Origin: Pleurostoma richardsiae
Lineage: Eukaryota > Ascomycota > Sordariomycetes > Calosphaeriales > Pleurostomataceae
Assembly: GCA_030052745.1 (NCBI GenBank)
Contig: JANBVO010000003.1
Coordinates: 1,054,001 to 1,118,000, forward strand
Direction: 5' to 3'
DNA: 64,000 bases
Position numbers and translations under genes: made by a program. The notes under the pieces are model-generated. The model had not been told where the DNA came from, did not search any database, and saw only the letters and a list, made by a program, of their open reading frames with translations. Below, in pieces: positions 13,245 through 58,700 of this stretch (its first letter is position 1; each line of letters begins with the position of its first letter).

Positions 13245-14066
13245 GCGCGGAGCCCGAGTTGCTCCTTACGCTCTGTACGATACTGTATCATAGCCAAACG
13301 GTGTTACGGTTACGGGTTGGGCCTGTCGGATTCGGATTATGGATTCTGTAGCATAAAGATATTCGATCATGCAACGATGGCAGGCATGGAGCAGAGCCGC
13401 CTTGATGCCTGCGCTGTCTCTCATGAGCTTTCCTGAGAGCGAGGAAGAATCGAGCAGCAGTCTCAAGTTGAGACTCAATGTCACCTTCGACCATGTCATA
13501 GCAAATGTACAGAGAGTAGGAGTCCTTGACTGCGTACACTTGCTCTTTCATACCTACCGACAGGTACGTTGGTGAGAAAAGATCACCTATATCTAGGGTA
13601 ACAGAAGGATCAGCCCTTCTTGCTCAACATTGCAGCGCATCCTCATCTCGTTCCTGCCGTTTTCGGCACCTGCCAGCCCGGATCCACCGTCCTGTCGAAG
13701 AAACTTGGGGGTGGTCCGTGCACCACGAATTTGGCGGGGACGAGGCAGTGAAGGAAAATTGATCTTGCGGGCTTGAATTCTCTTGGCGCACAAAATCTCC
13801 CTCCATTGCGGCTCTAAGCAAAGCTCACCGTCACCGGCCTATCACATCCACGACATACCCAGCGACATAGCGACGGTGAGTCCCCCGTTCCGGTCGAGAA
13901 ATGCGGCTCCCGTGGCTCTCGAGGCGCAGTCCTGAGCTCAGGAGCTGGATCAGCGTCGCAGCGTGACTGACAGCCCTTGCGCTACAGGCGGTACCTGTAC
14001 AACCACCCGACTTCCCCGCAGAACCCTTCTCGACTTCTCTCCATCCTCATCTTCGAAACAGACACC
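13245..14066. other. Intergenic region with possible 5' UTR intron of the NAC-beta gene
   Basis: This lies between cbp4 and the NAC-beta gene on the same strand. A GTGAGT donor at 13876 and a CTACAG acceptor ending at 13987, with GTGACTGACAG nearby as a branch region, would make a 112-nt intron in the 5' UTR of the downstream gene. I see no other feature. Confidence 0.35.
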
Positions 14067-14790
14067 ATGGCCGACGTCCAGGAGCGCCTCAAGAAGCTCG
14101 GTGCTAGCGCACGGATTGGTATGTGTGCCTCAGGTGGAATGCGGTCCCGGAAGTGAAAGTCAATTGCTAACATATTTCTGTAGGGTACGTATACTACGAT
14201 TCCGACCCGCCTACGATCAACAACTTCTCGATTTCCTCGGCTGCACATTGAACCATAGCAATTGGACGAAGGGCTAACATGGGAATACCAGTGGCAAGGG
14301 TACCCCCCGGAGAAAGGTCAAGCGGACCCCTCAGCGGTCCGGCACCGACGACAAGAAGCTCCAGCAGTCGCTGAAGAAGCTCAACGTCCAGCCCATCCAG
14401 GCCATCGAGGAGGTGAACATGTTCAAGAGCGACGGCAATGTCATCCACTTCGCGGCTCCCAAGGGTATGGAAATCCACCGCTGCCGTCCTCCTACCAGGG
14501 GGACCGCAGTCTGTTAGCTTGAGGCCCCGGTGACTAATGCCGTGATCAACATAGTTCACGCCGCGGTGCAGTCGAACACCTTCGCCATCTACGGCAACGG
14601 TGAGGACAAGGAGCTGACCGAGCTCGTCCCCGGTATCCTGAACCAGCTCGGCCCCGATTCGCTGGCCTCCCTGCGCAAGCTGGCCGAGAGCTACCAGAGC
14701 ATGCAGAAGGGTGAGGGCGAGAAGGAGGCTGACGATGACGACATCCCCGACCTGGTCGCTGGCGAGAACTTTGAGAGCAAGGTGGAGTAG
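14067..14790 (+). CDS. egd1: Nascent polypeptide-associated complex beta subunit (NAC-beta, Egd1/BTF3), with a one-base exon
   Basis: Ribosome-bound NAC subunit that, with NAC-alpha, shields nascent chains at the tunnel exit. Exons: 14067-14118, 14184-14184, 14292-14464, 14555-14790, giving 153 aa. The sequence reads [18 protein letters not shown], then [11 protein letters not shown] (the conserved basic ribosome-binding motif), then the NAC domain with [37 protein letters not shown] and [17 protein letters not shown], and an acidic tail ending [11 protein letters not shown]. The Gly-Gly before KGTP needs G (14118) + G (14184) + T (14292). Introns 14119-14183 (GTATGT...GCTAAC...TAG) and 14185-14291 (GTACGT...GCTAAC...CAG) are each complete, so base 14184 alone is an exon. 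Intron 3 is 14465-14554. No other splice choice I tried keeps both frame and motif. Confidence 0.93.
14119..14291 (+). other. Twin intron with a single-nucleotide exon at 14184
   Basis: Two back-to-back spliceosomal introns of 65 and 107 nt are separated by one G. Each has its own canonical donor (GTATGT; GTACGT), GCTAAC branch site and AG acceptor. Removing both gives ATT GGT GGC AAG, which restores the conserved RIGGKGTP of NAC-beta. Removing the whole block as one intron would lose one base and shift the frame. It resembles the fungal stwintron class, but here the inner junction falls one base outside the second donor. Confidence 0.85.
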
Positions 14791-15131
14791 GGTCGTCGCC
14801 GACGTCTTTGGTTGTGAGTCAGCGGTCAACGGGGAGCGTGAGAGCGGAAGGGAGCAGCAGCAAGGTTGAGGGCAGAATCGAGGTGTTGTTATAAAAATGG
14901 CACTGGGCAATCAACAGGGTCGGCTGGATGTTTGGTACATCATCTGCAATGGAGGGGGCCGGCCATCCGGACCGGCGTAAAGAACATAAAGTTAACCCTC
15001 AAGCTGCATTTACTGCGTCAACTTGGTTTGGCGTCCCGGCAAACAGTCTATTCCATTCTCATATTCAACGTCTGTGGTCGCTGTCGCGGCCTGTCACTCC
15101 AGGAATCTCAGCGTTGCCCGAGGCTTGCGGA
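14791..15131. other. Convergent 3' region between NAC-beta and Tad1 genes
   Basis: These 341 bp lie between two convergent stop codons and should carry both 3' UTRs. I see nothing else. Confidence 0.45.
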
Positions 15132-55354: not shown

Positions 55355-55754
55355 GGCAGGTGCTCTGAGCCGGAATCACTGTTGTCGTCGCCTGTACTGC
55401 GACGGTACAGTGACCACAACAGCAAGCTCCGCCCATTCATCGCTACTGATAGCGGTCTACACCACGACAGCAGCAGCACAGTAAACAAAAGACACGTGCG
55501 CCTTCATGCAGAACGCGATCATTCAAGAGACCGCCGGCCTTTAAGCTCGGCCTCCTCTTACCTTCCTGGGCCGCCTCACCTCACCTTCCTTATACACCTC
55601 CCGCTCACTCTACCGAAAAAGGCGGTATACCTATCTCGCTCGAAAGTTAAAGCTTTCCCCGTGTCATCCCATCTATCAGTATCCGCCTCCTTCCATCATC
55701 CTTTATTCCGGCCCATCTACTCCTGCAACGCATCATCGGTTCACACGATCCAGC

Positions 55755-58700
55755 ATGGCTACGCCTTCTCCGTCGACGCCCTCGCACAGTGGCCCACGTT
55801 CAAGGCCGACCTCACACCGAGGCGAGATCGACGCAGCAGTGACCTGGCAGAGTTTCCGTAGTATCAAGATCACTCTCTTCAACCTCCCTCTCGATATCAC
55901 CACCCTGGAAATCTGGAATGCCATGCGGCAGCACGCCAATGTTGTGCACATTGACCTCCTTGAGAACAGACAGGGTGAGCCCATCGGCCGGGCAAACGTC
56001 CGAATTGAGCCGCCTCCTCGCCGGAACCCCTGGCGAAGATGGGAGTGTACCATCACTCGTACTCAGGGGACCATAGTGAAGGCGAGCGTCAGGTTCGACA
56101 GAGGCACCCCAATTGATGGCACCATGCGAAGTCCTCTAAACAACATCATCCTTGAGCGAGCTATCCTGCATCCTATGGCCTTGAGGTTCGGAATGATGGT
56201 GAAACAGTCAACCATGATGGAGATGCGGCGACTTCAGACCAGGACCCGACATCCTGACATAAACGTGACTGTGGACTTCTCGGTACGACTATTCAAGATC
56301 AGATTCATCGTCAGATTTGAGGACAGCGTTCCTCTAGCCGCACAGCAGTATGAGGCCATTATCAGGTTCTCGCACATCAAGAAGATCCACCGTGTCGAAT
56401 TGAGTCCAGGAAACTGGGGCATCCTTATTGTCCTGCCCAGTCCACCCTCCTTCTACCGAAAATCAGATGAGATTGCCGCAACCCATTCTGCAGATCGGCC
56501 GACCTGGGGCGAGTCCGATGTATGGCTGAGGCAGATCAATATCATGCGGGAACCTTGGCTCATGAAGAACCGCCCGGCGACCCTAGACAAAGCGGATCAG
56601 TTCATCGACATCGGCAAATGGACCACCTATTGCCTGGAACTCGGAGTGGAGGAGTTGGCTGGCTGGCATCGATTCGAGGGAGCTTTCCGAGATTTCAATA
56701 TCAAACTCGAGCTAATGCCGAACTTCAGCACGGTTCCGCCGGGAGATGCGACCTATTTCACCATCATGTCCTCTGTCACAGATTATAAGACCAGTCACGA
56801 TGCTCTGGCTCTCCTAGACAGCGTCCATCTCCCTTTCAGCGTCCGCTACCAGCTAGAGGTCTGCATATCTCACGGCGTCTTCAACGAGCACAACATTGAC
56901 ATGCGGTTCCTTGAGAAGCTTCAGAGCTACAGCAACGGTTCTGACAAGGCCAAGTGGATGCTCGAGTCCGCCGCTGAGGATAATGTGCCAATCTACGACC
57001 CGATGACCCTTTTCGAAAACCAGCGGGCTCTGTCGTATTACCCCAGCACAACGAAGCTCCCTTCGTACTGCACCGTTGTCCGGAAAGCCATGCTGACCCC
57101 TACCACCATGTATCTGAACAGCCCAACCGTTGAGGCCACGAATCGTGTCCTTCGAGAGTACAGGCATGTGAACGACCACTTCTTGCGTGTCTCGTTCACG
57201 GACGAGCTCACCCAGGGCAGGGTTTCTCCGAATTCGGATTCGAGGAGGGACGACGAGATCTACACCCAGGTGTTCCGTGCACTGAACAACGGCATCATCA
57301 TCGGTGATCGCCACTACCGCTTCCTGGCCTTCGGCAATTCTCAGATGCGGGAGAATGGGGCGTACTTCTTTTGTTCCACGGGCCATGTCACCTGTGACAG
57401 TATCCGCCGCTGGATGGGAGACTTGAAAGACATTCGATGTGTGGCAAAGTATGCGGCACGTATGGGCCAATGCTTCTCGACGACCAGGCAGATCCTAGGT
57501 ATCAACGTCCCGCAGATCAAGGAAATCCCAGATACCATAAGACATGGGCACTGCTTCACAGACGGCGTGGGAAAGATATCGGTCTTCCTCGCTGACATGG
57601 TCGCACATGACTTGAAGCGCGGCCGCGACACGCCATCGGCTTTCCAGTTCCGCATGGGCGGCTGCAAGGGCGTTCTGGCGGTCAGCTCCGACACCAAACC
57701 TCACGAAGTTCACATCCGGAGTTCCCAGGCCAAGTTCAGTGCGGTATATAACGGCCTCGAGATCATCAGATGCTCCACCTTCGCTACTGCTTCCCTCAAC
57801 CGCCAGACCATCACAATCCTGTCTACTCTTGGGGTGGATGACTCCGTTTTCGAGGATCTGATCTCCGAGCAGCTCTTCAACTACGACCGCGCAATGTGGG
57901 ACAAGAAAACGGCTATGGGCTTGCTCGGCCGGTATATTGACGAGTACCAGATGACGCTTATCATCGCTCAGATGGTCCATCACGGTTTCATGGACACCCG
58001 TGAGCCTTTCGTGTGGACCCTCCTCAGACTCTGGAGGTCCTGGTCTGTGAAATACATGAAGGAGAAAGCCCGTATCATCGTGGAGAAGAGTGCTTTCGTC
58101 TTGGGCTGTGTGGACGAGACTAACACGCTGAGAGGCCACTCCGACACGATGTACAAGGCAGCTGGCCTTGACGAATCTCTGCTCCCGCAGATATTCCTTC
58201 AGATACCAGACGGCGAGAACAGCACTGAGTACAAGGTGGTCACTGGACTGTGCTTGGTTGGTCGCAACCCATCGCTCCACCCGGGTGACATCCGAGTCGT
58301 TGAGGCAGTCGATGCACCCAGCCTCCGTCATATGAAGAACGTCGTTGTCTTCCCCCAGACCGGAGATAGAGACATCCCGAGCATGTGCTCCGGCGGCGAT
58401 CTGGATGGCGACGATTATTTTGTGATTTGGGATCAGAACCTGATTCCTCCAGAGTGGAACTACCCGCCCATGGACTACACGGCTGATAAACCGGTTACCG
58501 TGAATAGAGAGGTAGAGATTCACGACGTCATCCAGTTCTTCGTTCTTTACATGAAGAACGACACGCTGCCAAGGATCGCTCTTGCCCACCTGGCTCAATC
58601 CGACTGGCTGCAGGAGTGTGCTAAGCATCCAAAGTGTAAGTGACCCAAATATGTCGACTTATCTACGGCGTCCAGGACACTGACCTCTGAACTAGGTCTT

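Follow-up and report, generated by a model that had tools for sequence, protein, structure and literature searches.

Single-nucleotide exons have been published for few genes (APC11, VPS55 and CYP621A). The reports describe one in Arabidopsis APC11, where the base is an A (PMC4674806), and others in plant APC11 and VPS55, with VPS55 isoforms both containing and lacking the base (PMC8831610, a 2022 paper that predates the Fusarium report). The third gene is Fusarium CYP621A, encoding a P450 of unknown function; its one-base exon has an AG/G/GT core, occurs in many Fusarium orthologues and has read support (PMC12940212). Outside the spliceosomal world, one base between two introns is also described for mitochondrial group II introns of fungi (PMC12308204). 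Related in layout are the stwintrons of Pezizomycotina, of which the types [D1,2], [D2,3] and [A2,3] consist of abutting short introns that require consecutive splicing (PMC5639578).

We analyzed a window of the Pleurostoma richardsiae genome, meaning the whole stretch of 64,000 nucleotides, in which the pre-mRNA of the NAC-beta gene very probably contains two complete introns around a one-base exon, G14184. With the Fusarium CYP621A exon the locus shares a spliceosomal and fungal setting, the AG/G/GT core, and a base that provides the second letter of a Gly codon within a conserved motif, with a phase 1 intron upstream and a phase 2 intron downstream (PMC12940212). With plant APC11 and VPS55 it shares one base between two complete introns and a frame that depends on that base (PMC4674806 and PMC8831610). 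The plant cases are backed by cDNA, reporters or RNA-seq, with the reporter work on APC11 carried out in protoplasts (PMC4674806), and the Fusarium case by reads and many orthologues, whereas NAC-beta is a conserved housekeeping gene known here from sequence alone and in one genome. The base is a G, in contrast to the A of Arabidopsis APC11. The mitochondrial example differs in its machinery, its introns being organellar ones of the self-splicing type in rnl. The stwintrons resemble NAC-beta in having abutting short introns, which in NAC-beta too would require consecutive splicing; unlike theirs, the splice motifs of NAC-beta are uninterrupted, its introns are parted by a coding base, and on paper either order of removal is possible (PMC5639578).

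One-base exons are very rare, as the original prediction held, but they have these few precedents, and the G14184 exon probably joins this known arrangement. A literature search, largely confined to papers outside subscription, found no report of a one-base exon in EGD1/BTF3, and in the stwintron papers PMC12403724, PMC9024468 and PMC6616335 microexon or one-nucleotide wording occurred in reference-list entries only.

Results

The NAC-beta gene and its product

NAC-beta (EGD1/BTF3) is a conserved helper protein associated with the ribosome. Its gene occupies 14067-14790 on the forward strand, from an ATG at 14067 to a stop codon ending at 14790 (Table 1), and after removal of introns 14119-14183, 14185-14291 and 14465-14554 the joined coding sequence gives 153 amino acids and a stop, with no internal stop. 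The product contains the NAC domain (PF01849, E 1.6e-24) and the N-terminal stretch RIGGKGT..RRK that marks members of the NAC-beta/BTF3 family, and it matches BTF3 in the PDB over residues 5-149 (E 1.7e-42), residues 5-17 of this alignment coming from exon 1. In the model that keeps G14184, RIGGKGT is identical to human BTF3 and aligned without gaps. Four of the six PDB sequences found at E <= 0.001 span the motif and all four are named BTF3, so that the motif comparison rests on a single distant protein.

Table 1. Parts of the NAC-beta gene, in window positions
Feature	Coordinates	Strand	Description
probable 5'-UTR intron	13876..13987	+	112 nt, GTGAGT...CTGAC...CAG, upstream of the NAC-beta start codon; predicted from sequence only
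coding exon 1	14067..14118	+	17 residues plus base 1 of the following Gly codon; ends ATT G
intron 1	14119..14183	+	65 nt, phase 1, GTATGT / TTGCTAAC / TAG; GCTAAC branch; donor score 9.88
proposed one-base exon G	14184..14184	+	middle letter of Gly codon G14118-G14184-T14292; required for ungapped RIGGKGT
intron 2	14185..14291	+	107 nt, phase 2, GTACGT / GGGCTAAC / CAG; GCTAAC branch; donor score 8.76
coding exon 3	14292..14464	+	opens T GGC AAG GGT ACC; joined frame and BTF3 alignment
intron 3	14465..14554	+	90 nt, ordinary, GTATGG / GACTAAT / TAG
last coding exon including stop codon	14555..14790	+	joined frame and protein match in genome

A protein search of the species' own genome (39.4 Mb, 136 contigs), in which the best candidates were scored, returned three matches at E <= 10, all of them exons of this gene. 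A retrocopy carrying the mature junction was considered and rejected, none being found among the candidates scored. No relatives were confirmed among the pattern stretches of viral_contigs (13) or genome_contigs (68), and the antisense frame 14197-14910 on the reverse strand matched no Pfam family.

Elsewhere in the window, a gene for an RNA-dependent RNA polymerase (55548-58640; PF05183, E 1.6e-181) is seemingly broken by one in-frame stop at 58641-58643; this stop falls within a probable 60-nt in-frame intron at 58636-58695 (GTAAGT...CTGAC...TAG).

Two complete introns around a single base

The upstream intron reads GTATGT...TTGCTAACATATTTCTGTAG and the downstream one GTACGT...GGGCTAACATGGGAATACCAG, each complete with a donor, a CTAAC branch site and a YAG acceptor, and the lone G14184 stands between them. 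Direct reading thus agrees to the base with the original prediction of introns of 65 and 107 nt around a single G, and one base is flanked on both sides by a complete intron. That prediction had also held the conserved motif to be in frame only with the G kept. This is right for the exact RIGGKGT, which needs the base, but too strict for the frame, which is also preserved by a single intron at 14123-14291 that gives RIGIGKGT; the base is accordingly required for the frame and the conserved protein, apart from this one-intron variant with one more residue.

We enumerated the possible single introns within this stretch (at least 40 nt, with a GT or GC donor and an AG acceptor). Seventeen were in frame with the downstream exon, and only 14123-14291 kept both ARIG and GKGTPRRK with a single added residue. 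Six two-intron GT-AG models keep a 16-residue stretch of the protein in frame; the G14184 exon is common to four of the six, and among all six donor 14119 alone yields RIGGKGT. Donors were scored with a matrix trained on 19 further candidate introns from the window, a heuristic set that has some doubtful members and includes NAC-beta intron 3; the scores of the training set range from 2.82 to 10.54. On this scale donors 14119 and 14185 reached 9.88 and 8.76 and the competing donor 14123 scored 6.18.

The chance of the internal composite was studied by dinucleotide shuffling of the interval with the outer donor and the final AG fixed. The pattern CTRAC-N4..25-YAG-N-GTRNGT arose in 32 of 200,000 shuffles, 16 of which retained a G, and a looser form arose in 309; the composite is thus more than chance would be expected to give. 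Weighing against the one-base exon, a fully loose two-intron composite is expected 0.4 times per shuffled window and was observed at one place, the NAC-beta locus, where it is counted from two donors.

Alternative readings of the junction

Two further points weigh against the one-base exon. The whole interval of 173 nt is no longer than a single intron can be here, since the 19 candidates found elsewhere in the window or as intron 3 span 54-191 nt, and our one-intron-at-a-time scan selected 14123-14291 for this gene. The resulting intron (169 nt, donor GTGTGC) is in frame, free of stops and of a length inside the window's range, its donor score lies inside the training range, and it predicts the join ATTGGTAT-TGGCAAG; the internal AG/G/GT would then be a chance feature or a relic. 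Such an intron, however, passes over a stronger donor only 4 nt upstream and inserts an isoleucine into a stretch that is otherwise ungapped against BTF3, lowering the bit score from the 148.4 of the G14184-kept model to 142.2, a loss of 6.2, and it leaves the internal composite without explanation. We consider it unlikely. A base absent from the assembly, or recently lost, at the 3' junction would make the one-base exon an artefact: the single intron 14119-14291 is off frame by exactly one base, and an extra G, making the exon start GTGGC, would restore an identical protein. Yet the junction CCAGTGGC contains no homopolymer, several long frames elsewhere in the window are intact, and the composite would again be left to chance, which together make a missing base very improbable.

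The two abutting short introns, which would need consecutive removal, also recall a stwintron, where one of the external intron's splice motifs is interrupted by an internal intron. Types [D1,2] and [D2,3] need TACGT and ACGT, respectively, right after the internal acceptor, but here GGTACGT follows the TAG; for [A2,3] the TA should be followed at once by an intron and the downstream exon should start with G, but here GGGT follows the TA and the exon starts with T. None of the three types tested agrees with the sequence, in keeping with the original view of the locus as stwintron-like yet outside the usual type, and a true stwintron is extremely improbable. A one-base exon explains the sequence best, and this reading is very probably right.

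Two ideas on the source of the introns were tried and dropped. Duplication of one intron into two would leave introns 1 and 2 alike, but their best local match was only GCTAACAT, equalled in 110 of 1000 shuffles, and a genome DNA search for a repeated introner-like intron with 14067-14464 hit only itself at E <= 0.001, a search in which repeats may be undercounted.

Genome-wide search for similar loci

Both strands of the genome were screened with the pattern CTAACN{4,25}YAGNGTANGT, which covers CTAAC branch sites and GTANGT donors only. The 20 matches correspond to about 4 in 100,000 per 173 bases, and against 48 in a reversed control the core pattern shows no enrichment, a point against the one-base exon; a [D1,2]-type core pattern likewise gave 84 matches versus 182 in the reversed control, as a pattern count alone. 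All 20 matches were screened for flanking sites, and only at the NAC-beta locus is a GTRNGT donor at most 200 nt upstream combined with a downstream branch site and YAG lying at most 300 nt away. Two loci fail on the donor distance, L006 at 321 nt and L013 at 210 and 222 nt. With the donor relaxed to GTRNGN within 200 nt, L006, L011, L013 and L024 also pass, their best joined frames having 12 to 34 open codons on the shorter side. Joined frames were checked for seven matches, two of which yielded no model, by a measure crude enough to rank the accepted NAC-beta model third at its own locus (49 and 75 codons). Besides NAC-beta, no second convincing one-base exon was found among the 20 core-pattern matches in the genome.

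A stop-free run of 408 codons adjoins the branch-AG-A-GT composite of L024 (G000:C126:134475-134501, minus strand). The composite is probably a chance occurrence, because the opposite side is open for 34 codons only.

Discussion

The cell's splicing of NAC-beta through G14184, and the order of its steps, we infer from the sequence. Both introns would be U2-type and each would be recognized by intron definition, the mode by which splice sites pair in Pezizomycotina (PMC5639578). For APC11, the authors considered the simultaneous removal of introns one base apart very unlikely and proposed their consecutive removal (PMC4674806). In NAC-beta, too, simultaneous occupation of the sites flanking a single base is unlikely, so that introns 1 and 2 would be removed one after the other, judging from the spacing only. 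Removal of intron 1 first would give the intermediate ATTGG/GTACGT, a normal donor, and removal of intron 2 first would give CTGTAG/GTGGC, a normal acceptor; either order would end in the same mRNA, ATT GGT GGC AAG (IGGK).

A direct join of 14118 to 14292, skipping G14184, shifts the frame and leaves 44 residues before a stop at coding nucleotides 133-135, which ends 90 nt before the intron 3 junction (coding nucleotide 225); keeping intron 1 or intron 2 unspliced also leads to early stops. Early-stop NAC-beta products would be expected to decay, and the skipped-G transcript would be a likely substrate of nonsense-mediated decay. One could go further and see in G14184 a dosage switch, in which consecutive splicing gives protein, the direct 14118-14292 join leads to decay, and the ratio of the two is regulated; structurally, the locus would then form a class one step outside stwintrons, with one intron coming between the remainder of the upstream exon and the exonic G at position -1 of the following donor. 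We regard this proposal as quite unlikely.

The plant and fungal precedents lower the surprise of the arrangement, while the conserved host gene and the splicing order keep the NAC-beta case of interest. There is a practical warning in it, since a gene finder that handles introns singly will join this gene wrongly, as happened in our scan. If the reading is true, a conserved fungal housekeeping gene would offer a tractable case for how the spliceosome handles introns one base apart, in what order it removes them and with what error rate.
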